From IMG/VR virus record IMGVR_UViG_3300003319_000320, positions 1 to 50,243 of that record: 50,243 nt of DNA. The stretch is one strand, 5' to 3'. The translations under genes were made by a program, and so were the position numbers. The stretch is from a virus. Of the stretch, positions 15,892 to 49,354 are shown in pieces; positions within the stretch are counted from its first letter, which is position 1; each line of letters begins with the position of its first letter. A model generated the notes under the pieces. The model saw nothing but the letters and a program-made list of their open reading frames with translations, was not told the DNA's origin and searched no databases.

Positions 15892-16286
15892 GCCTCCAGC
15901 CACTCCTTTAACTTCTTGTCCAATGGCTCCTCATACTCAGTTTCTCCCAAGATGAGTATGCGAAATGAATCAAGTGCATATTTTCCGATGCCTGGCAGTG
16001 ATGCCACCTGCTCCACGTTAAATTGATGGCCATCTTCAAAGGTGTCAAACACCGCGCTCATGGAGATGATTCGAATGGAGCGCTGGCGCTGAAAACCCAG
16101 TGGTCTCAGCACCTCTTCCATGTGTCGCACCTGACCGATCACGTAGCGCGGTCCAGGAAAACGCTTAAAAAACTCCGGCATGACCTTGCGAGCCGCGTCG
16201 CCACTCACCTTATTGAGACAGATGCAGCACACCAAAAACTCCCACAAGTTGTCCTTGTGCTCATTTTGTAACAGTGGTGGTTTCAC
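15888..16286 (-). CDS. HhH-GPD DNA glycosylase, MBD4-like
   Basis: A minimal 132-residue glycosylase domain. It has the helix-hairpin-helix LPGIGKYALDS (residues 97-107) and an Asp at 123 in EPLDKKLKEW at the place of the catalytic Asp. The start NLWEFLVCCICLNKVSGDAA and VLRPLGFQRQRS resemble the catalytic domain of MBD4, which removes T or 5-hydroxymethyluracil opposite G. No iron-sulphur cluster cysteines follow. It lies between the mutase and the hydroxymethylase, where it could repair hydroxymethylcytosine that has deaminated. GTG start; ribosome site weak. Fold firm; substrate inferred. Confidence 0.8.
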   Translation of the reverse strand: MKPPLLQNEHKDNLWEFLVCCICLNKVSGDAARKVMPEFFKRFPGPRYVIGQVRHMEEVLRPLGFQRQRSIRIISMSAVFDTFEDGHQFNVEQVASLPGIGKYALDSFRILILGETEYEEPLDKKLKEWLEA

Positions 16287-17049
16287 CTGATTGGGTGTAC
16301 CCCTTTCTCACCAGCATCGGCTCTGACTCCATGCGGATAACCTTTTCAACCAACTCCTGCTGACTGGAGAAGTAGTGGGCTGATCCACAGTTCTGATAAT
16401 ATCGCCCCATGACCAGCCTGCCTTTGTAGCCCCACTTCAGGCGGTTGTAAACGTACTCCTGGAGCATGGTGAAGTTGAAAACGTCATAAACCAAGGTAGT
16501 GACCATGTTGTTACTGCGCATCTTTACTTGGCAGTGGAGCTCGTTCTCACGTATGAAAAAGGAGAGGCTCTCAGTGCAGGGAAACTCCTCCTTGGTTCCC
16601 GTGCCGAGCATAGCCAAATCTCCCTCGTCCAGGATGCTGATCACGGCTCGCCTACTTCCAGGGTCTCTCTCCAGTTCTCCTATCACCGCATCGAGTTGCC
16701 TCGCCACTCGAGGTCCGTATGCCGTGGAGAACTTTGGAGCCTGAACATCTGCTTTGTTGGGATTCAAATATGACTTGGCGTTAGGGTTGACGTCGGCCAC
16801 GTACTCAAAATCGTCACATCCATTGAGCATCCAAATAAAAAACCTCATGGCAAAATCATAGTTGGTGGCTCTACCTTTGTTCCAAACCAGACGGTCATAC
16901 GGATTGGTGAGCTCAAAAGAGAGGTTCAAGATCTCTCTGGCCTCCTCTCCCCTGGTGTTGACCACGTATTCCGGGCGCTCATTCAACTCCGTCAATATTC
17001 GGATGTACAGGGACTCAAAGCTACAGTCGACAAAGTATTTTGTGCTCAC
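16261..17049 (-). CDS. Thymidylate-synthase-family dCMP hydroxymethylase (probable)
   Basis: 262 residues with the thymidylate synthase core: SRRAV (residues 132-136), catalytic Cys158 in EFPCTES and MRSNN (177-181), corresponding to the Arg-Ser pair that binds phosphate. The residue equivalent to Asn177 of E. coli ThyA, which reads the uracil ring, is Asp189 (LVYDVFNF). Asn-to-Asp at this site is the known mark of dCMP hydroxymethylases such as T4 gp42. A canonical ThyA is encoded at 18631, so this copy is free to have another substrate. Expected reaction: dCMP plus methylene-tetrahydrofolate to 5-hydroxymethyl-dCMP. GTG start, GTGA-coupled to the dCTPase-like gene. Confidence 0.8.
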   Translation of the reverse strand: MSTKYFVDCSFESLYIRILTELNERPEYVVNTRGEEAREILNLSFELTNPYDRLVWNKGRATNYDFAMRFFIWMLNGCDDFEYVADVNPNAKSYLNPNKADVQAPKFSTAYGPRVARQLDAVIGELERDPGSRRAVISILDEGDLAMLGTGTKEEFPCTESLSFFIRENELHCQVKMRSNNMVTTLVYDVFNFTMLQEYVYNRLKWGYKGRLVMGRYYQNCGSAHYFSSQQELVEKVIRMESEPMLVRKGYTQSGETTTVTK

Positions 17050-17917: not shown

Positions 17918-18634
17918 CTAGTCGCTTTTGCTCGCGGTCTTCACGGTCTTTGACGTCACGTTGTAAAAAGGAATGTCCGCCAACTCTACCGGAAGGTGAC
18001 CGGCGTGGATCATCTCTTCCGTGTGTATCAAACACATCACGTTCCAAAGAGCGGCGGAAAGGTGATCCTCACTGCGATCACCGAGGCGCCACTGATTGAG
18101 GTGCCGTTTGGCCCCATCCTCATACCAGGACAGAGGCATACCCTTTTCCCAGTTTCGACAACCCCCACCCTGCCTGTACTTGATGTCAGCCAGCTCCATG
18201 TGAAGGGCTAAGCGCTCGAGCGCTATGGGACTGATGGCGTCAAAGCGACCCTTTCCGGTGGCCCTCTCTCGAAGGGCTCCAGTGGGCATCTCCACGCGGT
18301 GACCCGTGTCGTTGAGTCGCCTCTCCCCAATGCGGCGGTCTTCGGCGATTTGACGGTCACAGTCCTCAATCACCTGTTCGTTTTCTGCGATCAACTCGGG
18401 AATGGTCATGTTGTATCCGAGCTTGTCACGGGCCGCCTTCATCAAGGTATGGAACAGCTTAGGATCTGGCGACACATCCCCTTTTATGCCAGCCCAGGTG
18501 AACTCCGACTCGGCGATCATCGCGAGCCTATCCATCTCGGCCACGGAAAACCGCAGGTTAGCTTGATTAAAACGCCGATCCATGTAATGTAGGAACTCAA
18601 CCTCGTTCATTTCCAAGCTGCTCTTCTCGCTCAC
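17918..18634 (-). CDS. DUF5664 (dATP/dGTP diphosphohydrolase-like) protein
   Basis: 238 residues from GTG 18634, which overlaps the thyA stop as GTGA with GGAGG 5 bases upstream; a TTG at 18664 is less likely. The C-terminal 110 residues match DUF5664: RFDAISPIALERLALHMELADIKY, NWEKGMPLSWYEDGAKRHLNQWRLG and a final helix EDHLSAALWNVMCLIHTEE, with the His and Asp/Glu residues expected to bind metal. The first 120 residues are helical and not recognised. Members are annotated as dATP/dGTP diphosphohydrolases, but the exact reaction here is not proven. Confidence 0.7.
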   Translation of the reverse strand: MSEKSSLEMNEVEFLHYMDRRFNQANLRFSVAEMDRLAMIAESEFTWAGIKGDVSPDPKLFHTLMKAARDKLGYNMTIPELIAENEQVIEDCDRQIAEDRRIGERRLNDTGHRVEMPTGALRERATGKGRFDAISPIALERLALHMELADIKYRQGGGCRNWEKGMPLSWYEDGAKRHLNQWRLGDRSEDHLSAALWNVMCLIHTEEMIHAGHLPVELADIPFYNVTSKTVKTASKSD

Positions 18635-19527
18635 ACCGCCACCTCCGCTTCGATCTTTGGCCAAGAGTCGTACCCGTCGAGTTTTAAGTCCGTGTACCGC
18701 ATTGACAATAGCCGCTCCAAGGGTGCCAAACCCACTCTACTATCGCCATCATTTATCTCAAGCACGGGTAATGGGCGTGGCTCTCTGGAGAGAAGTAGCT
18801 CCACTTGCTCAAGGTGATTTTTATAGATGTGAAGGTCACCGAATGAGATGATCAAGTACTTGGGTTCGTACCCAGTGCAGTAAGCGATCATTGAGAGTAG
18901 AAGGCCATAGGAAGCTATGTTGAATGGAAGACCCAAAAAGCTGTCAATGCTCCTCGCATAGAGGTGAAGGGACATGTACTGGTTTGGATGCACCTTGATC
19001 TGCCACAGCGTGTGGCACGGGGGAAGAGAGACTATGTCACAGGACTCGGGGTCCCAACCGGTCACGATGTGCCTCCGACTGTTTGGGTTGTTTTCAATGT
19101 CGCACATGAGACGGGCGATCTGATCCACTCCCCAGGCGGAACTGTTCTGTATACCCAATTCCCTTTGGTATCTGACGGGATGGTAGCGCATGCCGAAGTG
19201 GCGCCACAGCCAGCCATACACCGGGCCAAGGTCTCCCGGTTCCCTGCGGAATTTTGCGCATTCCTCCGGGGTGGCCCACTCTTTCCAAATGTCCACCCCA
19301 GCCGCTCTTAGTGCTCCTTCATCGGTGCTCCCACTGAGAAACCAAAACAGCTCTTCCGCGACCCAGCGAAAAGGTACACGCTTGCTGGTGATCAATGGAA
19401 ACCCTGTGCGCATGTCGTGAAAGAACACCGTTCCGTCAAAAACGGAGAGAGTTCCCACGCCGGTGCGATCATCGTGACTCTCCCCGCATTTCAAGATGTG
19501 TTTGAGAAGATCTTGATAGGCTTTCAT
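18631..19527 (-). CDS. thyA: Thymidylate synthase
   Basis: 298 residues with all hallmarks of ThyA: DDRTGVGT near the start, catalytic Cys171 in LPPCHTLWQ, ARSIDSFLGLPFNIASYG with Asn203 for dUMP, and the final folate-binding region GDLHIYKNH. It methylates dUMP to dTMP using methylene-tetrahydrofolate. It is coupled to neighbours by ATGA and GTGA overlaps and works downstream of the dCMP deaminase. Its intact Asn contrasts with the Asp in the paralogue at 16261. Confidence 0.95.
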   Translation of the reverse strand: MKAYQDLLKHILKCGESHDDRTGVGTLSVFDGTVFFHDMRTGFPLITSKRVPFRWVAEELFWFLSGSTDEGALRAAGVDIWKEWATPEECAKFRREPGDLGPVYGWLWRHFGMRYHPVRYQRELGIQNSSAWGVDQIARLMCDIENNPNSRRHIVTGWDPESCDIVSLPPCHTLWQIKVHPNQYMSLHLYARSIDSFLGLPFNIASYGLLLSMIAYCTGYEPKYLIISFGDLHIYKNHLEQVELLLSREPRPLPVLEINDGDSRVGLAPLERLLSMRYTDLKLDGYDSWPKIEAEVAV

Positions 19528-28930: not shown

Positions 28931-28966
28931 TCCCGGTGCTGTTATTAGTGACACCGAGCACCGGGA
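28931..28966 (+). promoter_or_regulatory. Stem-loop B upstream of the 1091-aa gene
   Basis: A perfect 10-bp stem, TCCCGGTGCT with AGCACCGGGA, and a 16-base loop. It ends 14 bases before the ATG at 28981 and is followed by AAATTGAAAGG, not a U-tract. It could stall ribosomes, protect the message or end upstream transcription. Its presence argues against the in-frame GTG at 28936, which is inside the stem. Confidence 0.55.
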
Positions 28967-28980
28967 AATTGAAAGGCAAA

Positions 28981-31900
28981 ATGACTAAGCCAATGAACCC
29001 TTCCAAATTTACTAGAGAGGAGAATGTTCCTCTCACACTGCAACCAGGACACTACTATAGGTGCATAGCCGGAGATGGACCAGACATCCCAGCCGGCACG
29101 TTGGTGCTGATCACCAAAATTGTAAACACCACGGTTCACTTCGTTCACTTGGACCACGGGTGGTATACCGACGAAGCGGAGTTCATGCTCAAGTATGAGT
29201 ACGCTCCCCACGGAAAAGAGGAGCGTGATCGAGAAATGCACTCTCTACTCTCGCGGTTGAGTGATATGCGCAGAGAGGAGGTTGAGCTTGGAGAGAAGCT
29301 CACGAACCTCGACCGCCCTCTCATCGCCCCACATCAAGAGGAGGCTGAAAACGCGGCCGCTCAGGTGGTGGGAAAAGATGAAGTGGCAGAAAATCAGAAC
29401 ACAGCGCTGTTGGTGCAGACACCGGACGCCATCCAGGCAAGGCGCATCAAGAAGGGCGTGTCGCTCATACGAAATGAGGCTATCAAGTTCGAGAAGCGCA
29501 TGAAGGGTTTACAGGCAGACATTCTGCGCCTCAAAAAAGAGCAAGAGGCTTACCTGGACGCCATCATCAAGCAAGCCTCTGGTTTGCAGAAGCTCGTGAA
29601 AGTGGCGGAAGAAGTGATCTGGACGGTGAGCATATACCTGGGACGTGGTGAAGAGATTGTCCAAATACAGGAGGGTGAGCCTGCGGAACCAGGTGAAAAG
29701 ATAGCGGTGAGACAACTCGTGTTGTTCGCGGATGAGGAGATGGCGATTCGACCCTTGGAGGGTGGCGCTGACTTCAACGACTTGCAAAAACTTGACGAGT
29801 GGCTTAAGGTGCCGGCCAATCTTCAGCAAGTGCTTCCAAACGTCCGCGGAGTGGTGGCGTTTCGTCCTCGCAGGAAGAGCAAGGACTACTTCGAAGGCGA
29901 CAACAGTATGGCGGCCGCCATGGCCAACGCAGAAATCAACAAAAAGAATCACAAAGTTTACTTCCTGCTGAGAAACGGTGCCAACCTGTACCGTGTCACC
30001 ACTGACGTGGAGGTGGGAGAGGTGCTGGTGCCGACTCCCACTGAGTTCGACAGTCTGTTTGACAAAGAGGAGTATGAGTGGGGTGGCAGGTTTGGCAGTG
30101 AGAGAAAATCTAAGGGTAAGACCAAGGTCAAGCCCGGTACGGCGGAGTTCGCCAAAGCGATGGAGATGGCGGATGAACTTCAAAGACACTATGGTCGCAC
30201 CCTTTTGTTCTTACAAGGAATCATCGATAGGACCAAGATCTTCGCTCCCTTGATCGATGAGGCTCTCAGAGTTAACCTACTTGACCGAAAGAGTCACGAG
30301 TCTTACATTCAATATGTTTATGACGCCCAAAATCTACTTCCCACCGGCAAGCTGCCATTCTGGAAGTGGGTGCAAGAGGTGAACAAAAACGTCGATGTGG
30401 GCCACCGCATCATAGGGATATTCAATGATTATGATCACGGGGTGCATAGGCGAAACAACGATGGCAGAATTCACCCTCGTGGGGCTGAACTGCCAGAAAA
30501 CCTTGCACTCCACACCAGGTTCTCCATCACTTATAAACGAACGGAAAAGGTTTACATTCCGAACATTTGGGTGGAGAGCAAAACCCGCCCCGGATGGGGT
30601 CACTATGGTGATTATCGGCTGCCCAAAACAAAGGCGTCGTGTTTGATTTACCGGGATGATCGATTTTACTTAGACTTTGACAATGTTGAAGTTGAAGACA
30701 TGCGGTTCTACCTCCAGAGTCGTGTTGACCGGCACAATTACATCACCATGTTTCCCCTATTGGAAACCTGCCTGGAGCTCAAAGAGAGGGAGCTTCAGGA
30801 AGAGGCTCCATTTAGAAAGCTCTTGATCGCGCTGATGATGAAGGCGCAGTCAGTTTCCGCGGAAGAGGCGGAGCTTTCTGTGGATGAGCTGATCAAGTGG
30901 TGGAAGTTAAAAAATAGAACACATCGAGCGCTGTTGTCAAACGACAAAAAAGCAGCCGAGATGATAGTCGCTGAGTATGGACTTAGGTTGCGACGAATGG
31001 ATGAGGTTTCCAAGCTCCAAAAAGAAACGGACACTGTGGTCAACCTCATTATTGATGCAAGCAGGGAACTCTATCCAGGCACGGACCTCATTTATCTTGG
31101 CCACAAAACAGGTGATCAGTTTATAGCCTTGGTGGCTCCGAACGAAGAAAATCTTTTTGTTCACGAAATAATTTGGGTTTACACAAAGACCAAGCAACGT
31201 GTTCGGGTGCTTGAAAAAAGGGAGTGGCGCACGGTAGATGGTCGTCGACTGCGCTGGAAAGAGCTACACACCGGACCACGCTGGGCCGAATGGAGATTCG
31301 ATGCCAGGAGGGAGCAATATCTGAGCGGTCCCGAGATTGAGTCACTGATTCAAGGGGCGTGGAAAAGCGTAGAAGAGAAGGTTAAAAAGAGGTGGGATCG
31401 CAAAGAGGAGCAGGGCACGGAGGTGTTCTGGCCATTAGCGATTAGTCTTGACTACGATCAAGACATCAAGTTTTGGGTTTACGCAAAAAAACCAAAGCAG
31501 GACCCGACCGCCGACTTCCTAGCTGACAGGGAGAAATTTGTAGTTTGTCCCCAACTCATCACCGTGGACCTGCACTGGAAGCGCAAGCACGGAAAAGTGG
31601 AGGCGAGGTACTTTGGTGAAACCAGTAGTCACTACTGCCATGACAACTGGCACAGGGATCCAAAAGACAGCGACAAGGTAGAGCGTCACTGGGCCGTGTC
31701 TGACCGTGAAAAATACAGGCTTGAGCCGGGACAAGTAAAGAAGCGTCTACTCTGGGAGGACAAAGACAACATCAAAAAATTGGATGAGGAGTTTGAGCGC
31801 TGGAAACAAGCAAAGCACATATTAAATCGGTGGGATGATAGGCTTCAGGACTGTGTCAATCAAGCTAGAACCGCAATGACTGATCGGTGGGAGGCCATCA

Positions 31901-32256
31901 TGTATCAGCACTTTCTCAATCAAGAGGACGGTGACCCGGAGCTCTGGGGTGATAGACTCTCCGAGCTGCGAAGTAAGCGCTCATTTCGCCTCGAGCCAGA
32001 GGGCTTTGAAAAAGCGTGCAGGGTGTTGATTACTAAAGAGATGAAGTTGGTGGGGAAAACGGTGGAAAGAATACTTGAGTCAGCTCCCTCTATCAAACTC
32101 AGTGAGGTTGAAGAGCGGTATCTTCCCCTGGACCTCAAAATAAAACCCAAGAAAAAGGGTGGCTCAACGCAAGAGGATGAAGAGACAGACTCAGAAGAAG
32201 ATTATGAGGTAGAGCCAATAGATGAAGAAGAGCTGGAAGACGAGGATAATGAATAA
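28981..32256 (+). CDS. 1091-aa protein of unknown function
   Basis: The largest gene outside the tail module. The ATG at 28981 follows GAAAGG; an in-frame GTG at 28936 lies inside a hairpin. An N-terminal beta-like domain (residues 1-75: HYYRCIAGDGPDIPAGTLVLI) is followed by a helical, coiled-coil-prone region (75-215). A mixed region with HKVYFLLRNGANLYRV (about 320-345) comes next, then a large charged and Trp-rich half. The C-terminal 45 residues are extremely acidic. No P-loop, polymerase or nuclease motif is visible. It is TAATG-coupled to primase, so it may be a replication or host-takeover factor. Confidence 0.75.
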   Translation: MTKPMNPSKFTREENVPLTLQPGHYYRCIAGDGPDIPAGTLVLITKIVNTTVHFVHLDHGWYTDEAEFMLKYEYAPHGKEERDREMHSLLSRLSDMRREEVELGEKLTNLDRPLIAPHQEEAENAAAQVVGKDEVAENQNTALLVQTPDAIQARRIKKGVSLIRNEAIKFEKRMKGLQADILRLKKEQEAYLDAIIKQASGLQKLVKVAEEVIWTVSIYLGRGEEIVQIQEGEPAEPGEKIAVRQLVLFADEEMAIRPLEGGADFNDLQKLDEWLKVPANLQQVLPNVRGVVAFRPRRKSKDYFEGDNSMAAAMANAEINKKNHKVYFLLRNGANLYRVTTDVEVGEVLVPTPTEFDSLFDKEEYEWGGRFGSERKSKGKTKVKPGTAEFAKAMEMADELQRHYGRTLLFLQGIIDRTKIFAPLIDEALRVNLLDRKSHESYIQYVYDAQNLLPTGKLPFWKWVQEVNKNVDVGHRIIGIFNDYDHGVHRRNNDGRIHPRGAELPENLALHTRFSITYKRTEKVYIPNIWVESKTRPGWGHYGDYRLPKTKASCLIYRDDRFYLDFDNVEVEDMRFYLQSRVDRHNYITMFPLLETCLELKERELQEEAPFRKLLIALMMKAQSVSAEEAELSVDELIKWWKLKNRTHRALLSNDKKAAEMIVAEYGLRLRRMDEVSKLQKETDTVVNLIIDASRELYPGTDLIYLGHKTGDQFIALVAPNEENLFVHEIIWVYTKTKQRVRVLEKREWRTVDGRRLRWKELHTGPRWAEWRFDARREQYLSGPEIESLIQGAWKSVEEKVKKRWDRKEEQGTEVFWPLAISLDYDQDIKFWVYAKKPKQDPTADFLADREKFVVCPQLITVDLHWKRKHGKVEARYFGETSSHYCHDNWHRDPKDSDKVERHWAVSDREKYRLEPGQVKKRLLWEDKDNIKKLDEEFERWKQAKHILNRWDDRLQDCVNQARTAMTDRWEAIMYQHFLNQEDGDPELWGDRLSELRSKRSFRLEPEGFEKACRVLITKEMKLVGKTVERILESAPSIKLSEVEERYLPLDLKIKPKKKGGSTQEDEETDSEEDYEVEPIDEEELEDEDNE

Positions 32257-38095: not shown

Positions 38096-41000
38096 CTATG
38101 GTCTCGTAAAGCTGGCGTATTTCCAGGCGCTGGGAGGACCCAAGGGATGCGCCGACTTTTTCCTCACGCCCACGTGAATTGTTGACGGAAGAGAGCCACT
38201 GTTGTCCTGTTTTTGCTGTTCTCCCGTGTAGATGTACTCTGGCATGTTGCGAAGCCAACGAGCATTTTTAATGTTCACTATGCGAAGGCTGCCGCCAAGG
38301 CCAGTGGTGTAGGGAACGTTGATGAAGCGCACACTGTACTCCGCCGTAAGGTCCAACGCTGTTCCAGAGACGTACCAAGGGTCCGAGATCGCTCCCAGGT
38401 AATTAATGTAGTAAGCGACGGTGCCATCAGGCTGAACCACCAACGTGAAGCGGTCTCCTTTGACCATGTGATATATCTTGCCGATCGGCGCGCCCTGAGG
38501 AATGATCACGTCTGGATTGATAGAACCGTGTTTTGTCCAGCCGGCTTTAATGGTGGCTACATTTCGAGCGACGCTGGCCAACTCTATTCCGATCAAACTG
38601 GGAAACAGGTTGTTGCTGATGGGGTCCTCCGGAACTTGAACCTCCAGCATAAAACCCCCCGCGATTTTAACCGGGCTTTCACTTTCCACATACGCCTTTA
38701 GTGGAGAAACATCCCACTCCGTATCGCTCTGAGTGGAGAAAAAACCACCAGGATCAAGGTATGTATATCGAGTGGTTGGTAGATATGAGACATCTGGCTG
38801 AAAAGCTTTCAGTGGTGGAGTTCCACTGATTCTCTGTAAATCGATGGGTTTGATGGTGAGGGGACCTCGCTTCACCGTACCACCACCATCGGCGGCGCTA
38901 CGGAATATGAGCTCGTAAGAATCATCGGTGAGCTGACCCAATAGTGTCTCATCCAGCCAATCAAGCAACAAGTGTCCTCCAGCGCTTAAATCAAAGACGC
39001 CGGTCAACGTTGCTGGAGTCTCAGCTTTGAAGCTGTTGGCCTTCCAAGTGAAATTAACTTCGGCGGCGTCGATCAGTGACTGACCAAACGTGACCGCTCT
39101 TAGAGCAAAGGTGGTGTTGATGGCGGAGTCCGGAAGTGGGACAAACTTAACGGCATCGTCCAATAACACAAAGAATGTTCCCGCTAAGGTGTCACCAATG
39201 TGGTCGGCGGTGTTGTCCTGGCCATTCAACAGCTTGGTCAGCGTCCATCTATTCGGAAAGGCGGGGTCCTGCGTCGCAGTTGCAAATCCAAACACCATTT
39301 CCCCCACCACGGCGCGATTGGCTCCAGCCACCATGTCGGCCTCGGGAACGCTGGTCAAAAACCCGTCGTTGTAAAGATCAACCACAATTGAGCCGGTGTT
39401 GTCAACCACGGCGGGGTTTGTCGACAGGGACGTAGCGCTCACCACTTTGCCCATGATGGAGATTCCAGTGATCGTGGCCAAGCTTACCCATTGATCATTC
39501 TGCTGGTACCAAACGGTGAACCCGCGATAGGCTTGTCCGACGTTTGTCCTGGGACATCCAGCCACCAAAATTCCTTGAAGCTCCGCTGGAGTTCTGGCGG
39601 GAATGTCGATGTAAGCCGCGACCGTCATGGTGGAGACGGTTTGCCCTGGATTGTAGTCAGGCACCAGGGAGCTCGAGACCGGTTGAGTGAAGGCCTGCAC
39701 CTCCAACGCCACCCCCTCACACTCCAACAACAAGCCGCTCGTGATTGAGAGCAGGCGAAATACGTATGTGAATCCGTCGCTGGTGGTGGTTGTGATCCGG
39801 TATCCAGGATAGAGGTATAAGTACGTCCAGGGAAGCGTGAACTTATACTTGGTTCCCATCACATATTCTTGATACAGCACCCTCTGCGCGGCGGCCCTGG
39901 CCTCATCAGAAAGAGCCGTGACGTTGACTTCAATGGTCTTGACCTCTCGACCATCAGTGTTGCGCCTTTGATCCGACTGCATGTCTACATCCCAATCGGA
40001 TCCTGGGTGAATGTATTTGACTTCCACCAGGCGTGGTAAGCTGGCTTGTTTTTCAACCACCGGCACGATGGTTTGAACAACGTCTTGAACCTCCGACTCA
40101 GCGTCAACCCATCCAAAATCACTCTCTGGTATGACAACAGTAGGTTCCTCACCATTTTCATAGGCGAGCAATTTTCCAGCGCCTTCGGTGGTGAAGTAAT
40201 TGAACATCGCCTGAAGCTCGGGAGAGTCCATCACGGCGGCTGGAGAGTAGCGACCACCCTCGATTTTCAGCCCTCTCACCCAGGCTGAGCTCACGCTGGT
40301 AAAATCGAAGTCTTCAGAGGAAGAGGTGACGAATGGGCAGTCGAGACCCACCCCTCCGTTGTACAAAGCGGAAGCCTCGGAGTCGCTGAGAACCCTCTTC
40401 CAAAAGCCCCAACCATCCAGCACTCCGTCAAAGAAAAGACCTCCAGCATTCTCATTTTTACCAAAGAGCAGATTACTGGTTCCTCCAAAAACACCGGTGC
40501 TGTGAGCTGTAGTCGCCAGCGTTCCTTCATTGATGCGTATGTTGATGGTGTTGGATACGGAGTTGTGCCAGGCCCTGATGAAATACCAGGTACCCGCCAC
40601 CATAGTGGTGGCGGACAAAACATTAACTGCGGACGTGCCATTGTTGGACACCCAAAACACCATTTTGTCGGTGGCATTGTCGAACTGAAGTATGAAAACC
40701 AGTTGACCTGTGGTGCCCCACATCCCCACAACTGCTTGGTCGGACGTGGTGTTTTCCAGCTTCACCCAACCAGCCCAGGTGAAGTCGATGTCGCCGTGCA
40801 ACAAAGAGGCGTTGTGGGTGACCGTGAGGAACTGACTTGATCCAGACTCCAGATCGGCTCCATAACGAAGTTTGCCCACAGCCCTCGCTATCGACCCGGT
40901 GGGCACCAAGTGATTGGTCGCGATGGAATCCAAACGATCCCCCGAGACTTCATCAAACTTCCAGAATGATACCAGTCCGGTTGATAGGGCTGAGCCTCTC

Positions 41001-42526
41001 AATCCCTCTCGTTCACAAAAGGAGGCGAAGATCTGTGACAGGGTTTTGAGCTGTTGATGCTCCCAAACTCCGGTAAAGTTTGGGACAACTCCTTGCCATC
41101 GATCAAGTTTGAAGTTGGCGTGAACCACGTAGGCTCTTCCCCGATAGGCAGGAGTTGAGCCGTCCCCAAAACGCCCGTCAATGTCCGCTTCAATGGTGGG
41201 GTCCTGAAGTTGGGTGTATGAGCCTGGATAGATATTGGAAGGTGCGCCGCCTCCCTGAAAGCCTCCCCCAAAACCCCCTCCGCCACCTCCGGTGGGATCA
41301 TCAGGAGGTGTGGGATCAAAGGGATCCACTGGCTCCAGAACAGAATTCAACCGGTTAAACGATTTGAGGTATCCTTCCTGCGGATCTGGCATGGAAGCCA
41401 AGGTGTAATCGGAGTCAGCCCCAACACCGGAGTCATAAACCCCACTGGCCAACGCCAGCTGTGGATCTTGATTGTAGATGATGTCGGCGTTAGCATACTC
41501 ACGCGTCATGGTGAGTGGTCCCCTGGCAAACATCAGAGCTATGTCCAGGTCGTAGGACACCTGAATCACTGTCTCGGTTGGGGTGTGACCTTTTCCACCC
41601 CGTGTCTGTTGTTGAACTGGGGTCTCATGTTTGCGGAGTCCACTGGTCCAGATAATGATGGCCGGGACCTTCACTCCGCCGGCACCAGCGTTGGGTGCCG
41701 GTCCAATGTCGGTGGCCACCAATACTTTGCACTCCTGCATGCCAGCGCCGGTGCTCTGCACCGCTATTCCCAGCCAGAGAGGATAGGTGGGAGTGGGGAA
41801 AGTAAAGTTGGCGGGGATTATTTCGGCCGCCCCCTTGTAGAGCCTAAACCTGCCTTTTCTCAATTCCAGGGTGAATTCATCTCCGGTGGCCCAAGTGGTC
41901 ACTCCCGCCAAACCCTGATTGTTGTTGTGCCTCAAGGTGATGGAGTTGTCCGGGGGATTCCATTGGATTCCGAATTTGAAGTCACTGTTGGCGTTGGTGG
42001 GACTGGCCGTGGTGGAGAATCCCGCTCCGGCGTACCCCGTCCCAATTTTGAACCGGATAAACGCCTCGTCCCCATCGTTTATTTGAACGTTGTGGGACAT
42101 GCCGCAGTTCCAAAGACTTCCAGAACCAGACGTCTTGGTGTAGCCACCATCCCCCTCCGAAGTGCCGTTGACATTGTTTTGAGGAACTGGATTGGCGCCC
42201 ACGGTGGGTGAGAAGCTGGGACTACCTCCGTATATTTCCGGAATAAACAGGCCCTGCTCAGAGTTCTGAAGCTGTATATTTCCGGTGAGCTGACCAACCC
42301 GCTGAGGTTTTTGTTTCGGACCAAAGGCGCGACTCAATGCATAACTTCCCATGGACACCGCGGTCGATACGGCGACCGCGATCAATATGCTCACAGGGTC
42401 CTTGAGCAGGCCGTCGCGAATGGCCTGAGCCAGTTCCTCCCGTTTTTGGTCAGCGACATCATCCAGTCGTTGGACCAACGGCTTAGGTTCCCACTTCACA
42501 AGAGCAGTGATCTCCTTCTTTTTCAC
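38096..42526 (-). CDS. Tail-tip/host-specificity J-like protein with LamG-type insert
   Basis: About 1476 residues from GTG 42526 (GTGA overlap with NlpC/P60; a TTG at 42568 is possible). The N-terminus has a hydrophobic stretch (DPVSILIAVAVSTAVSMGSYAL) typical of J-like tip proteins. The region around GLRKHETPVQQQ and PDPQEGYLKSFNRLNS through KLDRWQGVVPNF, and the later VKYIHPGSDWD, belong to the tip core seen in gene-transfer-agent megatron-like proteins. Residues about 514-730 are a concanavalin/LamG-like domain (GLVSFWKFDE ... DGVLDGWGFWKRVLSDSE) inserted into the core. The C-terminus is strand-rich and may contact the receptor. Confidence 0.8.
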   Translation of the reverse strand: MKKKEITALVKWEPKPLVQRLDDVADQKREELAQAIRDGLLKDPVSILIAVAVSTAVSMGSYALSRAFGPKQKPQRVGQLTGNIQLQNSEQGLFIPEIYGGSPSFSPTVGANPVPQNNVNGTSEGDGGYTKTSGSGSLWNCGMSHNVQINDGDEAFIRFKIGTGYAGAGFSTTASPTNANSDFKFGIQWNPPDNSITLRHNNNQGLAGVTTWATGDEFTLELRKGRFRLYKGAAEIIPANFTFPTPTYPLWLGIAVQSTGAGMQECKVLVATDIGPAPNAGAGGVKVPAIIIWTSGLRKHETPVQQQTRGGKGHTPTETVIQVSYDLDIALMFARGPLTMTREYANADIIYNQDPQLALASGVYDSGVGADSDYTLASMPDPQEGYLKSFNRLNSVLEPVDPFDPTPPDDPTGGGGGGFGGGFQGGGAPSNIYPGSYTQLQDPTIEADIDGRFGDGSTPAYRGRAYVVHANFKLDRWQGVVPNFTGVWEHQQLKTLSQIFASFCEREGLRGSALSTGLVSFWKFDEVSGDRLDSIATNHLVPTGSIARAVGKLRYGADLESGSSQFLTVTHNASLLHGDIDFTWAGWVKLENTTSDQAVVGMWGTTGQLVFILQFDNATDKMVFWVSNNGTSAVNVLSATTMVAGTWYFIRAWHNSVSNTINIRINEGTLATTAHSTGVFGGTSNLLFGKNENAGGLFFDGVLDGWGFWKRVLSDSEASALYNGGVGLDCPFVTSSSEDFDFTSVSSAWVRGLKIEGGRYSPAAVMDSPELQAMFNYFTTEGAGKLLAYENGEEPTVVIPESDFGWVDAESEVQDVVQTIVPVVEKQASLPRLVEVKYIHPGSDWDVDMQSDQRRNTDGREVKTIEVNVTALSDEARAAAQRVLYQEYVMGTKYKFTLPWTYLYLYPGYRITTTTSDGFTYVFRLLSITSGLLLECEGVALEVQAFTQPVSSSLVPDYNPGQTVSTMTVAAYIDIPARTPAELQGILVAGCPRTNVGQAYRGFTVWYQQNDQWVSLATITGISIMGKVVSATSLSTNPAVVDNTGSIVVDLYNDGFLTSVPEADMVAGANRAVVGEMVFGFATATQDPAFPNRWTLTKLLNGQDNTADHIGDTLAGTFFVLLDDAVKFVPLPDSAINTTFALRAVTFGQSLIDAAEVNFTWKANSFKAETPATLTGVFDLSAGGHLLLDWLDETLLGQLTDDSYELIFRSAADGGGTVKRGPLTIKPIDLQRISGTPPLKAFQPDVSYLPTTRYTYLDPGGFFSTQSDTEWDVSPLKAYVESESPVKIAGGFMLEVQVPEDPISNNLFPSLIGIELASVARNVATIKAGWTKHGSINPDVIIPQGAPIGKIYHMVKGDRFTLVVQPDGTVAYYINYLGAISDPWYVSGTALDLTAEYSVRFINVPYTTGLGGSLRIVNIKNARWLRNMPEYIYTGEQQKQDNSGSLPSTIHVGVRKKSAHPLGPPSAWKYASFTRP

Positions 42527-42978
42527 GCCCCCACGGCCCTCCACACTGAGTGTATCCTTCGCTCCCAACGACCATCCATTCTGTGACGCCGCACACCACG
42601 CTCAGTGGCGTCAATGATGTACGTTGTGTATGACAACACTTGGTGAACAATGACCAAGTGCCTAGGAACATCTTTTTCTCTGCACTCTTCGTCACACACC
42701 GCCAAAACATCTCCGGCTTGACGAGACCCGTCCTTCACTCTTCGCAATTTTTTGTGTAGAACAAAAAGCATTTCTGCGCCGTCTTCCCTGAGGCGATAGT
42801 TGTTGATAAACACTTCTTCTTCCGGGCTGATCAAACCCACTGAGGGAGCCAGCGCCACCAAATAAATGAAGTTTGCGCAGTCCACAGCGCGACCCTTGAT
42901 CCTACCCTGGTGGCGAAACGGGGTGTTGACCCAAGAGCGCGCTTCTTCAGCAATTCTGTCACCCAACGACTTAGTCAT
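42523..42978 (-). CDS. NlpC/P60 family tail peptidase
   Basis: 151 residues from ATG 42978 with GGAG 5 bases upstream. NlpC/P60 features: WVNTPFRHQGR, then the catalytic Cys34 in VDCANFI, and a downstream His in RHLVIVHQV, followed by a C-terminal ERRIHSVWR. In this tail position the enzyme cuts peptidoglycan peptides during DNA entry, as gene 14 product does in gene transfer agents. It is coupled to DUF2163 upstream and the J-like gene downstream. Confidence 0.85.
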   Translation of the reverse strand: MTKSLGDRIAEEARSWVNTPFRHQGRIKGRAVDCANFIYLVALAPSVGLISPEEEVFINNYRLREDGAEMLFVLHKKLRRVKDGSRQAGDVLAVCDEECREKDVPRHLVIVHQVLSYTTYIIDATERGVRRHRMDGRWERRIHSVWRAVGA

Positions 42979-42980
42979 AA

Positions 42981-45263
42981 TCACTCCGGATAGGTCAGTA
43001 TCTTCTTCAACCCAGGTAGATCTGGCTCCGAGTTGGAGTCGATCATATCATTGAATTTGTCCCTGGCCTGTTCTCTGGTTCCATCGTATCCGGCTACCAG
43101 TTGAATAAGATCGTACTTGGTGATCGGCCAAGGAGTGGGCAGTTGTATTTCCAAACTGTTTCCAGAGTTTGATTTGACCTCCATACTTTGAAAACCAGAA
43201 CCTATTCCCAGCTTTGCTCTGTCCAGGGTGGCTGAAGTGGCGAATAGAGCTATGTCCACTATCAACAGCTTCGCTGGCGTCACCAGGGAGGTGTACTTCA
43301 ACGTCTCCACGCCGGCAGAGCTGACCAGGTAGTACCGAATCTTGTTGTCCGCGTCGTACTTGATGCGGATGTAGTCAGTGTCCGTGAAGCTGAACGCCGA
43401 GCCCTGGTACACTCCCAGCTCTTTTACTTGAGCAGAGCGAACTCCGGCAGTGTTGCCAAACTCCACGCCAAATTCTATCGTGGCTTGGGTCCCGTCACGA
43501 TTCACACTGGACAATCCAAATGTCCGATACAGGTTGGCTGACGGAGCGCTGAGAAGACACTGTGCGTATTGACCGGCGGAAATGAACTCCACGCTGGCAG
43601 CTCCAGCGTTCCAAGCTGTGCCCCCAGACGTTTTTTGAAGTTGATTGTCAGCATTTAGTGTCACGTTCACCAGGTCTACCCAGGTGACCTGCCTGGTCAA
43701 AAAGGTTGCCAAGCCGTAACGGAAATAGTTATTTGGCTGTATCGTGCCGTCAACTGTGAAGTTGCGCCGGTCAGTGACAGCCGTGACCATCCGGTTGGAA
43801 GTGAAGCTGGTGGGATTGATTCCGGCTGGAAATGAATTCCTGTCAGTGGGAGAGGTGAGCTCTCCGAGCAGTGGTTGAAGGGCCTCTGACTTAGAGAGAA
43901 ACTCCATCTTATAGGCCACGGAGTTCAGTATTTCCACCTTTCCCAAGAATCCTTCAATCCTTCCAGTAGAACCCTCACCCAAGTTCAGGTAATCAATGTA
44001 TTCAAACACTATTGACGCCCTGCTCCAACGTCCCAGTTCCAGATCCCTTCGAGTGACAACCTCATCGAACACCCCCATGACCTCCACGCTGTTGGGACTG
44101 AGTCCTATTTTTTGAAGAGGCCTGGTGACCTCTGTGGAGGACACGGCGTAGGTCACTCCATTGAACACCAGCTGTCGAGTGTGTTGGGCGTACGCGGCCA
44201 CCAAGCCGTCTTTGGACGTGATCTTCCAGATGGGACAAATGAAAGTTACGTTGCTCTGAAGCCTCTCCAACAAAGTGCTGGAGATGGGAGCGGCTGGAGT
44301 GGTGACAGACTGTTCTGTTAGATAAGCGCTATCGCCACTCGCGTTGCGTGCCCTTACTCTATAAAAATAGGTGGTGCTCTGAGCGACGGTGGTGTCGCTG
44401 TAGGTGACATCGTTGGCCGCGTTGGAATCGATCTCAGCGTACACGCCACCGGGGCCGGTTTTTCTCTCTATGCGGAACGAGGTCTCATCACCGGAATTAT
44501 CGGTCCAGGTGAGATCGACTTGGGCATGGGAGACCGCCACCAAAATCAGGTTTGACGGCGCCGCGGGAGGTGATCCCGCCACGACAACATCCGCAGGAAC
44601 CAGAGGAGCAAAAGAGTAAATCACCCTTGGGTGGGCTATGACGGTTGTTCCACTAACAGTGGGTGCGCCCCGTTTGAGACTGATTATGTCGCGGATGAGC
44701 GGGATGTACTCCACCAATCCGTTGGAAATGCACAGTGGAGACAAACCTTTGCCCAACGCGGCTCGCTCACCGGCGCTGAGAATCCTGTTCCAAATGGCAA
44801 ACTCGGCGAGGTAGCCATCCCAATTTCTGGCTGAATCATTGCCGCGATTTCCGATGTTGTACTTTTGGGTTTCAGTCGCCGTGAACGTGCCCACAGGTGT
44901 GGTGGCCTCGGTCACCGTCTGGGGTGTCCCGTCCTGATCAATTATTGGGTCGTTCGTTGTGGCGCCATTGTCATATCCGATAAAGAAGTTGTGCCACTCA
45001 TTGGCGTTGGGGCGAGGCACTGTCCAGGCGCCGTTGGTGGATGAGAACTGATGACCAAAATCGTAAGTGTTGCCAACGTTATTGTTGCTGAAGTTGATGC
45101 TGGAGTTACCACCAACCGCGTCACCCTTGTTGAACATGCGGCCACCAGCCCCTCCACCGTTTCCAATGCGGTACGCCCAGATGAAATAACTGGCCTGGGC
45201 CGGCTCATTGGTCAGCGCTGACTGGACGATGTCGCTTGAAGCCCCTCCAAACTGGCGTCCCAT
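42981..45263 (-). CDS. DUF2163 tail hub protein with LamG and FN3 domains
   Basis: 760 residues. Residues 1-180 form a concanavalin/LamG-like domain (ending YLAEFAIWNRILSAGERAALG). Residues about 232-322 form one fibronectin type III repeat (VDLTWTDNSGDETSFRIER ... YFYRVRARN). From about 330 the protein follows the DUF2163/BR0599 pattern of tail hubs (FICPIWKITSKDG, LELGRWSRASIVFEYIDY, IEGFLGKVEI, and the C-terminal TPWPITKYDLIQLVAGYDGT). In related tails DUF2163 connects the distal tail ring to the tip. The LamG and FN3 parts are additions at its N-terminus. TAATG coupling to the upstream gene. Confidence 0.8.
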   Translation of the reverse strand: MGRQFGGASSDIVQSALTNEPAQASYFIWAYRIGNGGGAGGRMFNKGDAVGGNSSINFSNNNVGNTYDFGHQFSSTNGAWTVPRPNANEWHNFFIGYDNGATTNDPIIDQDGTPQTVTEATTPVGTFTATETQKYNIGNRGNDSARNWDGYLAEFAIWNRILSAGERAALGKGLSPLCISNGLVEYIPLIRDIISLKRGAPTVSGTTVIAHPRVIYSFAPLVPADVVVAGSPPAAPSNLILVAVSHAQVDLTWTDNSGDETSFRIERKTGPGGVYAEIDSNAANDVTYSDTTVAQSTTYFYRVRARNASGDSAYLTEQSVTTPAAPISSTLLERLQSNVTFICPIWKITSKDGLVAAYAQHTRQLVFNGVTYAVSSTEVTRPLQKIGLSPNSVEVMGVFDEVVTRRDLELGRWSRASIVFEYIDYLNLGEGSTGRIEGFLGKVEILNSVAYKMEFLSKSEALQPLLGELTSPTDRNSFPAGINPTSFTSNRMVTAVTDRRNFTVDGTIQPNNYFRYGLATFLTRQVTWVDLVNVTLNADNQLQKTSGGTAWNAGAASVEFISAGQYAQCLLSAPSANLYRTFGLSSVNRDGTQATIEFGVEFGNTAGVRSAQVKELGVYQGSAFSFTDTDYIRIKYDADNKIRYYLVSSAGVETLKYTSLVTPAKLLIVDIALFATSATLDRAKLGIGSGFQSMEVKSNSGNSLEIQLPTPWPITKYDLIQLVAGYDGTREQARDKFNDMIDSNSEPDLPGLKKILTYPE
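44297..44568 (-). repeat. Fibronectin type III repeat, copy C
   Basis: About 90 codons of the DUF2163 hub protein that are clearly related to the two repeats at 47476-47750 and 47768-48040. Shared blocks include LTWTDNS, FRIERKTG, TTYFYRVRARN and YLTEQSVTTP, visible also at the DNA level. It marks recent exchange or duplication between tail genes. Confidence 0.7.
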
Positions 45264-45763
45264 TAGGTCTCCTTCAGCTCAACGGCCACTAATTCAAGAT
45301 CTCCTGTAGCGGTGTCGTTGGTGGTGTCACTGGGCTTTCTTTGTACTTTCAAACGGAAGGCTTCCCCCACGGCTATTGAGTCTATCTGTGCCCCGTTGGT
45401 GTGAACCACATTGACGATGTCCACGTTTCCGCTGGTTCCAGGCACGGCCGCCACGTTGACCCCATTGGCCGAAGCAAATCCGTCGGAGTCAATGTCCTGC
45501 TGAGCGTTTCCAATTCTCTCAAAGGACGTCTCCAATCTCACCTTACCTGTCGTGGCCGAGGTCATCGCGTAGTGCAGGTACACGGTGATGCCGCCGCCAG
45601 CGTAGCGACGCGGTAACACTCCAGTGAATATGGCCGTCTCATCAGTGGTGTCGTCAAAATCCAATACGGCGTGACCATTTCGAGTGTCAAACGTCGCGTT
45701 ATTTGACGCGGGGGGCTCATTCATGAGCGGAGTAAAAATTAAAAGGGTATCTCCTGAAGCCAT
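45263..45763 (-). CDS. Virion structural protein, strand-rich
   Basis: 166 residues, strand-rich (HAVLDFDDTTDETAIFTGVLPRRYAGGGITVYLHYAMTS in pieces; GKVRLETSFER; AFRLKVQRKPSD). A pattern like this is met in small virion or decoration-type proteins, here part of the block inserted between DUF2460 and DUF2163. No catalytic residues are evident. Its stop overlaps the DUF2163 start. Confidence 0.6.
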   Translation of the reverse strand: MASGDTLLIFTPLMNEPPASNNATFDTRNGHAVLDFDDTTDETAIFTGVLPRRYAGGGITVYLHYAMTSATTGKVRLETSFERIGNAQQDIDSDGFASANGVNVAAVPGTSGNVDIVNVVHTNGAQIDSIAVGEAFRLKVQRKPSDTTNDTATGDLELVAVELKET

Positions 45764-45773
45764 GTCATTCTCC

Positions 45774-46157
45774 CTATTCGGCCAATGTCACCTCAGCCTT
45801 GCAAGACAACTTTCCAATCTCCGGAGTGTAGTGCTTATTTGCACTGGTCTTTATCTGAATGTCGTAGTCATACTCCGTTCCAGGGGTCAACAGTTTGGTG
45901 TTCGTTGAGGTCAAATAGAACTTCAACACCGCGGTGCCATCGCCGGCGCCATTGTCGCTGATGTGGCCTTGAGCCGCGTCGTCCACCGTGTCTATGTCCT
46001 TTTGGAATACGCCAGGATCGGCGCCACCGCCAGGGGCTTTAACGGTCAGCCACGCTTGAGTCACGGTCTGACCGGTGGGGATATTGGTGACTGTGCGGAT
46101 AACATCCAGATCGTCACCCTTGACAAAGAGATTGATTACTCCATCAAATGTTGGCAT
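45774..46157 (-). CDS. Small beta-rich tail protein
   Basis: 127 residues resembling an Ig-like or baseplate-upper-protein-like beta domain (VIRTVTNIPTGQTVTQAWLTVKAP; AVLKFYLTSTNTKLL; EYDYDIQIKTSANK). It overlaps the end of the nuclease-bearing protein by 14 bases. It probably attaches to or caps a fibre. Family not certain. Confidence 0.6.
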   Translation of the reverse strand: MPTFDGVINLFVKGDDLDVIRTVTNIPTGQTVTQAWLTVKAPGGGADPGVFQKDIDTVDDAAQGHISDNGAGDGTAVLKFYLTSTNTKLLTPGTEYDYDIQIKTSANKHYTPEIGKLSCKAEVTLAE

Positions 46158-48609
46158 TGTTCGTCGCTCCTACGCTGATTGATGCTGAAAGGCCGGTATT
46201 TTGGTGAGTTACAGACACCAGAGCCGTGTCATTCGGGTCTATAGTTCTCGTGCTAGCGGAGTCCGTGTGATCCACTGAGATAGTGGCGGCGTTGACCCAC
46301 ACAGCCGGGTCTGAAGATGCACCACTCTCATCTGAAGGAAGGTTAAAAATGGCTTGCATGGGGTTGTGGTCGGAGTCCCGAACACCAGCATCTCCCGACG
46401 TTCCCGTCAATTCCACCACTTCCGGCACGCACTGGCCAGAGCCATTGAGACCATGAGGGCACTGAGCCCTGGTGTCCACCACCTCTATAGAGCGGAGAGT
46501 CAGTGTTGAATCTTGATATAACTTAAATCCATCTATCTCCCTAGTGTCATGCGTAATTACGGCGCTTAGGGTTTGGTCTGGACCATTGCCGTCACGGTCT
46601 CCCCAATTCGCTATTGCTTTTCCAGCCGCCACACCGGCCGACCACTGGTGAACTAGTCCCTTTCCAGTGAAGAGATCTTCTTGCAATCCATTTATGTAAT
46701 TAACCCCTGATCCGTTTGTGGTCAGGTTGATAGCCGCGCCTCCAGGTGTCAACGATAGTTTGAGAGAATTAGTAGTGACATCCCTGACATAGTAAGTGGT
46801 GGACGGAGCCAGTGGTGATGGCAAGGTGCCCCCATCAGTGAACACCGTGACCGGCTGATTGGCAACCCACCAGTGATCAGTCGCCGTGAGCACATCGGTG
46901 GTGGAGTCGGCGGTGAATTGCACTTTTCTCGGGTAATCAGCAAACTGGAAATTGAAATCCGCCGCTATGATGTAATTGGGGTCAGATCCCACGATGGATG
47001 CTATCCAGGTCAATAGCTCTTTGATCTGCGCAACCCGGATGGTGGAGTAGGTAGACTGAAAAGCGTCCGCCCCGGCTGACCAAGCCAAATGGGTGCAAAA
47101 TACATAGAACTGAAACCCGTCCACCGCCACCTTGACACCGACAGCCGCCTTATCCACAATGGTGCCATTCCAGGGAGCAAAGGCACCCTCACTCAAATCA
47201 TGCTGATAGAACTGGATGAGGGTAACTCGAGAATTTTTGATCCAAATGGCCGGACCGTCTTGTTGACCAGCATCGTTCTCACGATAAACTGGCTGTGAAA
47301 ACCCAGCCGCAGTGAGTCCAGCGTTGGCCCAGCCGTTATCTCCCGTGCCCTGTTCTTGGGTGCACAGAATGTCATTGGCGACCTTCATGCGATTCACTTG
47401 ACGGGTGTAATTGGCTGGGAGACCATCCGTGCCCTCTCCGTGCTGTACATTCCACAGCCAAATAGATACGGTTCTAGGGGTGGTAACTGATTGCTCTGTT
47501 AAATACGCGCTGTCACCGTTGGAGTTGCGAGCCCTCACTCTGTAGAAATAGGTAGTGTTTGCCTGGGTGGTGACGTCGGAGAACTTCACCACATTGGACG
47601 ACACAGACCCTATTTCAACGTATGTTCCTCCTGCGCCTATCTTCCTCTCAATCTGAAAGGAGGTTTCATTGTTGGAGTTATCAGTCCACAACAGGTCCAC
47701 CTGGAGAGCGGACTTGGCTGTGAGTACCAAAGCTGAGGGGGCTGTTGGGGCTGATCCCCCTGATGCCGGGGTTGTGACAGACTGCTCCGCCAAATATGCG
47801 CTATCCCCTGCATTGTTTCTGGCTCGAACCCTATAAAAATACGTGGTGTTTGCAACAACGGTGTTATCACTGTAAGTGGAGTCATCGGCAAGGTTAGAGC
47901 CTATCTCCACATACGTTCCTCCCACCCCCGTCTTGCGCTCAATTCGAAAGCTATCTTCGTTGTTGGAGTTGTCAGTCCAAGTTAAGTTGACTTGGCTGGG
48001 GGAGGCTGCGTCCAGAATCAAATTTGTCGGCGGTGTCGGCACCATGACTCCTGCCTCAAAATCATCCCCAGAATATCCCGTGGTTGAGGACATAGCTCCG
48101 CTGAATCGCAGTCCAACTCGAGTGCCCGTGTGACCGTTAGATATGGTCCAACCGACCCTTTCCACTCCGCCGATCAAAGCCCGAAACTCCACATTGCCAG
48201 CGTTGAATCTTCTTTCGATGCGAGCGAGCCTCGTGTCTGTGGGGCTCAGTGCCTCAGTGAATGTGCCAAGCACTGTGACAGACCCACCGGAAGTGGAGCG
48301 CAGAGACCACTCATTGTTGCCATTGTTGTGGCGCAACCAAACGTAATCATCGTTCGTTGGGTGCAAGCTGATGACGATGGCGGCGTTGACGCTCAACGAA
48401 GACATAAGGGTGAGTGGCATCTGCACGTACCCATCACCGGACACAAGGGTGGAGTGCATCAACAGGGCCACAGAGCTGCTGACGTCCTTGGTCACCTTGT
48501 TGCTAAAGATAACCAGATTGGAGCCACTGATGGGGTGAAGGGACCATCCTCCAAATCCATTCAGAGTGGTGTTGTCTGCTGCGGTGAAGGGTTCTGTGAT
48601 TAGTGGCAT
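46144..48609 (-). CDS. Tail protein with lectin-like, two FN3 and an EEP nuclease domain
   Basis: 821 residues. Residues 1-190 are concanavalin-like; 190-280 and 286-378 are two fibronectin type III repeats. From 380 an endonuclease/exonuclease/phosphatase (EEP) domain follows, with its motifs in order: WNVQH near 387, TQEQG near 415, CTHLAW near 503, IIAADFN near 549, EIDGF near 692 and DSDHNP near 745. Residues about 558-630 form a beta insertion of a kind seen in phage structural proteins. The C-terminal 60 residues are a short beta domain. It would carry DNase or phosphodiesterase/phosphatase activity on the virion surface, perhaps against extracellular DNA. All key motifs look intact. 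Confidence 0.75.
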   Translation of the reverse strand: MPLITEPFTAADNTTLNGFGGWSLHPISGSNLVIFSNKVTKDVSSSVALLMHSTLVSGDGYVQMPLTLMSSLSVNAAIVISLHPTNDDYVWLRHNNGNNEWSLRSTSGGSVTVLGTFTEALSPTDTRLARIERRFNAGNVEFRALIGGVERVGWTISNGHTGTRVGLRFSGAMSSTTGYSGDDFEAGVMVPTPPTNLILDAASPSQVNLTWTDNSNNEDSFRIERKTGVGGTYVEIGSNLADDSTYSDNTVVANTTYFYRVRARNNAGDSAYLAEQSVTTPASGGSAPTAPSALVLTAKSALQVDLLWTDNSNNETSFQIERKIGAGGTYVEIGSVSSNVVKFSDVTTQANTTYFYRVRARNSNGDSAYLTEQSVTTPRTVSIWLWNVQHGEGTDGLPANYTRQVNRMKVANDILCTQEQGTGDNGWANAGLTAAGFSQPVYRENDAGQQDGPAIWIKNSRVTLIQFYQHDLSEGAFAPWNGTIVDKAAVGVKVAVDGFQFYVFCTHLAWSAGADAFQSTYSTIRVAQIKELLTWIASIVGSDPNYIIAADFNFQFADYPRKVQFTADSTTDVLTATDHWWVANQPVTVFTDGGTLPSPLAPSTTYYVRDVTTNSLKLSLTPGGAAINLTTNGSGVNYINGLQEDLFTGKGLVHQWSAGVAAGKAIANWGDRDGNGPDQTLSAVITHDTREIDGFKLYQDSTLTLRSIEVVDTRAQCPHGLNGSGQCVPEVVELTGTSGDAGVRDSDHNPMQAIFNLPSDESGASSDPAVWVNAATISVDHTDSASTRTIDPNDTALVSVTHQNTGLSASISVGATNNANI
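47476..47750 (-). repeat. Fibronectin type III repeat, copy B
   Basis: Second FN3 repeat of the nuclease-bearing tail protein, immediately before the EEP domain. Close relative of copy A and of copy C in the DUF2163 protein, with the same TWTDNS-like, FQIERK and YFYRVRARN blocks. Confidence 0.7.
47768..48040 (-). repeat. Fibronectin type III repeat, copy A
   Basis: First FN3 repeat of the nuclease-bearing tail protein, about 90 codons and separated from copy B by a short Gly/Ser/Ala linker. The adjacent copies form a tandem that could recombine. Confidence 0.7.
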
Positions 48610-48613
48610 ATTT

Positions 48614-49354
48614 TTACGTGAGTCCTAACTCTGCTGGAAGTATTTCCGCCATTTGCACTCCTTTGACTTCCGAGGCTATGTCAGCCCTCAGATTCAAGGA
48701 GTTCTGTAAAAACCTCATGGGCGTGTCGTACTCTCCCGACCAGGAGACCACCACACCATTGGCCGGGGCATTTGTGAAGACCACCGTGCCGGTGGTGTTG
48801 TCTACCGTGTACCCGGAAGCCTGAACTACTCCGTTGAGCATCACGCGAAAGGCCGGTACTCCGTTGGCGGCCGCATCCAAGCTCGGTATCACTCTCTGTG
48901 TGATACCGTCAGCTTCAAACAGGGTGGGGCATCCAGGGGCGAGCAAACTATTGACCACCGGTTTTATGCATCGCTTGTCAAAAATCCTCGCAGTTCCTGG
49001 GCGCTTAAACTCTCGAATGAGCTTCCAGGTTTTGCTCGCCGTTGTTCCGTCACTGATACCCAACACCTGATTGACCACGAAAAAATCGCTGAAGATGCGC
49101 ACTCTCAATCCGTATCCACTGCCCAACCCACCGACCCAGATTTTCATCAAGTACTGAACCATGGCGTAGTTAAGCAGGTTGAGGTCAAAGGTCCACACCT
49201 GTTGAAAGTCAAAGCGAGTGACGTTGGTTTTATATACGCCCGTGGGAGGGTTACGGATCAGGGAGTTGTCGTACTCCGGCCCTCCCACGGCGTCCCCCGC
49301 GGTGAATATGTTTGGATCAAGCAGAATCTCATCAAACAGGTATATGACGGCCAT
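48614..49354 (-). CDS. DUF2460 distal tail protein
   Basis: 246 residues following the DUF2460 pattern: an N-terminal TRFDFQQVWTFDLNLLNYAMVQYL, the middle KTWKLIREFKRPGTARIFDKRCIKPVV, then VMLNGV ... YTVDNTTGTVVFTNAPANGVVVSWSGEYDTPMRF (given in parts). DUF2460 forms the distal tail ring in gene-transfer-agent-like tails, between tail tube and hub. It directly follows the tape-measure gene, as in those systems. Confidence 0.8.
   Translation of the reverse strand: MAVIYLFDEILLDPNIFTAGDAVGGPEYDNSLIRNPPTGVYKTNVTRFDFQQVWTFDLNLLNYAMVQYLMKIWVGGLGSGYGLRVRIFSDFFVVNQVLGISDGTTASKTWKLIREFKRPGTARIFDKRCIKPVVNSLLAPGCPTLFEADGITQRVIPSLDAAANGVPAFRVMLNGVVQASGYTVDNTTGTVVFTNAPANGVVVSWSGEYDTPMRFLQNSLNLRADIASEVKGVQMAEILPAELGLT

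Follow-up and report, generated by a model that had tools for sequence, protein, structure and literature searches.

Most of the known tail enzymes that aid the passage of phages through the host envelope or matrix hydrolyse polysaccharide or peptidoglycan. The EEP fold is shared by phosphosugar phosphatases, sphingomyelinases and tyrosyl-DNA phosphodiesterases, and in Crc it occurs without catalysis. Among described systems, Dpo7 is reported to be an exopolysaccharide depolymerase (PMC4658415) and TspA of RcGTA a biofilm-degrading tailspike (PMC13420450). In RcGTA itself, the end of the tail and the baseplate are built from the distal-tail, hub and megatron proteins, which have domains that bind sugars, and four cysteines of the hub hold an iron-sulfur cluster (PMC7296036).

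The window analysed here, a virus record of 50,243 bases taken whole, contains a tail operon of this GTA-like kind, in which one gene joins FN3 repeats to an EEP domain (Table 1). We suggest, from sequence comparisons, that its product is a live tail-tip EEP hydrolase, a reading to which we assign a probability of about 0.6. The reading frame is exact from its ATG at 48609 to its stop at 46144; the ATG lies 4 nt past the stop of the DUF2460 gene, and the last 14 nt are shared with the gene that follows. An artefact or frameshift was considered and rejected, as the frame has no internal stop and its composition is like that of its neighbours, with GC and GC3 values close to theirs.

Table 1. 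Positions of the EEP gene, its parts and the neighbouring tail genes in the window.
Feature	Position	Strand	Evidence or remark
Whole EEP gene	46144..48609	minus	821 aa; N-terminal domain, two FN3, EEP with inserted module, C-terminal tail
N-terminal domain, residues 1-190	48040..48609	minus	lectin-like in the first-pass annotation; no family match
FN3 repeat 1, residues 191-283	47761..48039	minus	PF00041; 72% identity to hub FN3 of the same phage
FN3 repeat 2, residues 290-377	47479..47742	minus	PF00041/PF24489, two stretches
EEP first part, residues 379-560	46930..47475	minus	PF03372; N387, E419, H507, D551, N553
Inserted tail-type beta module, residues 565-638	46696..46917	minus	PHROGs 7765, 4711, 9370; tail-protein matches
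EEP second part, residues 639-757	46339..46695	minus	GLVHQW, NWGDR, D693, D747, H748; alignment A6
C-terminal tail, residues 758-821 and stop	46144..46338	minus	from sequence alone
Distal-tail protein (DUF2460)	48614..49354	minus	directly upstream of EEP gene; PF09343, 64.8 bits
127-aa gene inserted in cassette	45774..46157	minus	no significant family match
166-aa gene	45263..45763	minus	LamG-type lectin gene next in many IMG/VR phages
Baseplate hub	42981..45263	minus	PF13385, PF00041, PF09931, PF09356; extra N-terminal LamG and FN3 before attachment domain
Tail-peptidase position in GTA-like cassettes	42523..42984	minus	identity by position only; weak PHROG minor-tail matches
Megatron-type tail-tip protein with LamG	38096..42568	minus	PF13550, PF23666, PF13385; phrog_4271, 232 bits

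The first-pass annotation had placed the domain on a tail protein, and the setting agrees: the gene sits in the tail operon, beside the DUF2460 distal-tail gene. The DUF2460 distal-tail, hub and megatron genes follow the order of a GTA-like cassette, with the first two non-adjacent here. In seven annotated reference phages with such a cassette the hub gene directly adjoins the distal-tail gene, and in this record three genes separate the two, which indicates that the EEP gene was inserted at this point together with two more. The three-gene insert resembles an adhesion cassette, so that any enzyme encoded in it would be expected to act at the host surface. Stand-alone EEPs are found in phage-like contigs (L241-L262; L273), as they might be if the enzyme, though encoded in a tail operon, worked inside the infected cell or was freed at lysis. 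Such a non-virion role is very improbable, because FN3 repeats and a tail-type module occur in one chain and the gene is tightly spaced with distal-tail and baseplate genes; it is from these features that we infer the presence of the protein in the virion.

Two further observations concern the same operon. The 166-aa protein (MASGDTLLIFTP...) and a LamG-type lectin gene form a recurrent pair in otherwise different IMG/VR phage contigs, the 166-aa gene being present at 48 loci (L193-L240) and adjoined by the lectin gene in most. The hub (42981-45263) is without the cysteines conserved in the reference-hub consensus, GCDKTxxxCK being replaced by GYDGTREQAR. Elsewhere in the record, two distinct genes of thymidylate synthase type, each assigned to phrog_160, lie at 16261-17049 and 18631-19527, and a 1106-aa ORF without a PHROG match (28936-32256) adjoins DprA-like, primase and DnaB-like helicase genes.

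The architecture proposed from the sequence alone held up unevenly in the N-terminal half. The two FN3 repeats were recovered by Pfam, and the first resembles the FN3 of the hub (Table 1). The lectin-like label given to residues 1-190 found no support, with nothing significant in Pfam, PHROGs or PDB sequence searches, and a peptide scan of IMG/VR that required shared 8-residue peptides returned no relatives of this domain. Inspection by eye of the 821-aa protein revealed no evident signal peptide. A structure predicted for the full-length protein from its single sequence (pLDDT 35) modelled the FN3 repeats alone, left the N-terminal fold unusable and was set aside.

The enzyme assignment begins from a profile match above threshold. 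While hmmscan of the full-length protein reported FN3-type domains only, PF03372 scored 26.9 bits on the post-FN3 segment alone, against a Pfam cut-off of 24.5, and a search of the whole record with PF03372 gave a single match (27.9 bits, E 3.8e-8), inside the EEP gene. The EEP motifs listed in the first-pass annotation are all present and in order, namely WNVQH at 386-390 (N387), QEQ at 418-420 (E419), ADFN at 550-553 (D551, N553), DGF at 693-695 (D693) and SDHNP at 746-750 (D747, H748); a catalytic-type histidine that it had overlooked, H507 in CTHL, completes the set. As a regular expression, the ordered motifs matched this protein and three other ORFs among 8,652, all three from loci fetched as EEP matches, and they appeared in none of 20,000 shuffles of the domain. 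Profile-profile comparison (hhalign) of the domain with 21 bacterial EEPs gave P 7.4e-6, as compared with 0.43 for the hub of the same phage, used as a control.

The catalytic positions were placed by an alignment, A6, of 15 viral EEPs with 17-23% identity to the phage domain, whose rows are of the ExoIII type. Its invariant columns hold N387, E419, D551, N553, D693, D747 and H748, the last three at columns D315, D369 and H370, and NWGDR aligns onto the WWDYR of the family. H507 falls on the catalytic-type histidine shared by other EEPs, including a bacterial protein with LTD and TSP3 domains, in a second alignment, in which D693 is unaligned; D693 is aligned in A6. The phage protein does not itself show the motif of the ExoIII/AP endonuclease subfamily, in which a tyrosine in a YxPNG-type motif replaces the histidine of THL: it reads CTHLAWS where most ExoIII-type rows of A6 read AYxPNG. 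A search of PDB with the A6 profile was discarded as evidence, the profile being dominated by ExoIII rows and saying little about the phage protein. Overall identity to known EEPs is low, about 20%, and drift would not be expected to leave every catalytic position in place at that distance. Judged by profile and alignment, the post-FN3 segment is a genuine EEP (PF03372) domain with its catalytic positions intact.

The domain is split by a 74-residue module (565-638) that starts 12 residues past N553, in agreement with the beta module of about 70 residues that had been proposed between ADFN and DGF. The module matches PHROGs 7765 and 4711 and the tail-fibre family 9370, and it also matches a 'putative tail protein' of a Rhizobium phage as well as ORFs of prophage type from proteobacterial genomes. 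Identity to these phage and prophage tail-type modules is 36-40%, with the common pattern LP..l...TtYYv...GG.AI, so that the description of the insertion as virion-type is correct as to origin. When the module was deleted, the stretch aligned by hhalign ran past ADFN through GLVHQW, as expected for an insertion. Two bacterial-genome BLAST matches (L122, L124) were judged from their alignments to be due to chance.

Since the module interrupts the active-site half of the domain, it could have destroyed the activity and left an EEP domain kept for binding or spacing, in the company of FN3 and LamG neighbours that are binding modules; binding-only relatives of the EEP fold exist, such as Crc, a PDB match of the A6 profile. 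We consider such a former enzyme distinctly improbable, as drift would hardly have spared every catalytic position in a sequence with an overall identity of about 20%. A fold showing a disrupted active site would have told against the first-pass annotation; this point was addressed by sequence and by a medium-confidence model that renders the module poorly, and in the alignment the catalytic residues before and after the insertion keep their register. From its position in the loop after D-x-N, the module would adjoin the predicted active-site cleft and may reshape it, and it may govern substrate access or mediate contacts within the virion.

Structure prediction, a check that had been called for, yielded an EEP-like fold. 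The alignment-based model has a mean pLDDT of 60.7 and a pTM of 0.67; confidence rises to about 80-90 in the conserved strands of the core and is low in the module and adjoining loops. It contains a four-layer alpha/beta sandwich with Z of about 20 to EEP enzymes, a medium-confidence result in that the input alignment contained remote EEP sequences and partly steered the fold toward EEP. The top structural match is TDP2 (Z 21.5 over 234 residues, 3.0 A), followed by the Bacteroides EEPs 3g6s/3mpr (Z 20.8, 20.7), the mannosyl-6-phosphatase Bt3783 (Z 20.2) and sphingomyelinases (Z 18.7-19.9), with nocturnin also among the best; a Foldseek search was led by TDP2, nocturnin and CNOT6L. ExoIII-type structures were absent among the 50 structural matches listed, which is no proof of distance. 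That His-type EEPs came out on top of a model built with ExoIII-type alignment rows nevertheless lends the fold some independent support.

As these matches span nucleases, phosphatases and a lipase type, the fold does not reveal the substrate. Thus, of the 'nuclease domain' first proposed, the EEP domain stands and the DNase identity does not follow, enzymes with several substrates being matched about equally. DNA is a plausible substrate, phosphosugars or phospholipids possible ones, and for DNA as the main substrate of the putative hydrolase we would give slightly less than even odds. A tail-tip EEP might instead act on phosphorylated surface glycans, teichoic-type polymers or phospholipids, in the manner of tail depolymerases. 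The near equality of Bt3783 and the sphingomyelinases with TDP2, and the place of the gene among lectin-type and FN3 adhesion genes, are consistent with such a substrate; the nearest N-terminal match, however, is a bacterial EEP with LTD and TSP3 domains reminiscent of extracellular nucleases, and no substrate-specific residue was found for either reading. On balance we regard a substrate other than nucleic acid as rather unlikely.

The preferred reading is thus of a live hydrolase at the tail tip, with nucleic acid as the likeliest target. The gene would encode an accessory tail-tip protein of a siphophage with a GTA-like tail, in which the N-terminal domain and the two FN3 repeats attach or space the protein and, during adsorption, provide binding. 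The C-terminal part would be a catalytically competent, metal-dependent EEP hydrolase that cleaves phosphoesters outside the host cell, near the receptor, most likely in extracellular or surface-bound DNA and possibly in a phosphosugar or lipid. The complete picture, in which a surface DNase or phosphoesterase with a cleft reshaped by the module would strip the host surface of nucleic acid or phosphorylated polymer at adsorption, is offered tentatively, and a part in crossing biofilm, as first proposed, may be imagined from the same arrangement. If true, a tail-tip EEP hydrolase would add phosphoesters, and possibly extracellular DNA, to the targets that virions can cleave. It would also provide a case of a domain inserted into an enzyme core with retention of the catalytic residues, and would mark the junction of distal tail and hub in GTA-like tails as an insertion site for adhesion and enzyme genes.

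When 50,697 phage records were searched by tblastn, no relative of the EEP domain was recovered, the inserted module alone being matched, and peptide scans of IMG/VR and of GTDB contigs, which require shared 8-residue peptides and so miss distant relatives, likewise returned none. DUF2460 and primase relatives were also absent from the peptide scan. No FN3-bearing viral contig had PF03372. Of the 48 contigs that carry the 166-aa gene, a single one had it, in a stand-alone EEP with no tail fusion. The same architecture was thus sought in other phages, as had been recommended, and found neither in the phage records nor in the IMG/VR scans nor in the FN3-bearing contigs. The stand-alone EEP encoded beside the 166-aa gene on an IMG/VR contig (L273:328-1509) begins with a hydrophobic N-terminal segment and shows motifs like those of DNase I (FNIQTFG, GDFNTD, SDHFPV).

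The nearest sequences to the phage EEP domain are bacterial EEPs, of which distant examples were recovered from a Chloroflexota sample (one, L125) and a Verrucomicrobiota sample (three, L270-L272). L270, with EEP, lamin-tail and TSP3 domains, has the closest N-terminal motif, WNVQDGVGT as against WNVQHGEGT in the phage, and the phage domain may derive from a bacterial protein of this kind, a suggestion to be taken as a lead and not as a tree. The papers covered, largely outside subscription journals, yielded no tail protein with an EEP domain; the statement that no tail protein with this order had been described is accordingly in keeping with the collections and papers covered. Each ingredient is known, be it the EEP enzyme, the tail enzyme or the tail module; their combination here, a tail-tip operon that encodes an EEP split by a tail module, had no counterpart in those collections and papers.

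Compared with known systems, the phage domain has in common with members of the EEP superfamily (TDP2, 3g6s/3mpr, Bt3783, sphingomyelinases, DNase I) the motifs N, E, H, DxN, D and DH, and differs from them in its fusion to FN3, its place in a tail operon and the tail-type module after DxN. L270, multidomain and probably extracellular, recalls in its architecture the extracellular nuclease ExeM (PMC6085458; compare Xds, PMC6746945). The phage protein, unlike L270, is without the LTD by Pfam, and in this departs from the ExeM type that combines lamin-tail and EEP domains; it also lacks an evident signal peptide and is encoded among tail genes. With the GTA-like tails of RcGTA (PMC7296036) and R4C (PMC10276861) the record shares the order of tape measure, distal tail, hub, peptidase and megatron, and it differs in that three further genes separate distal tail from hub and that the hub has additional LamG and FN3 domains. 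A final likeness is to tail-borne depolymerases and tailspike enzymes, in that a putative enzyme in or near the adsorption apparatus would have an extracellular polymer as its target.
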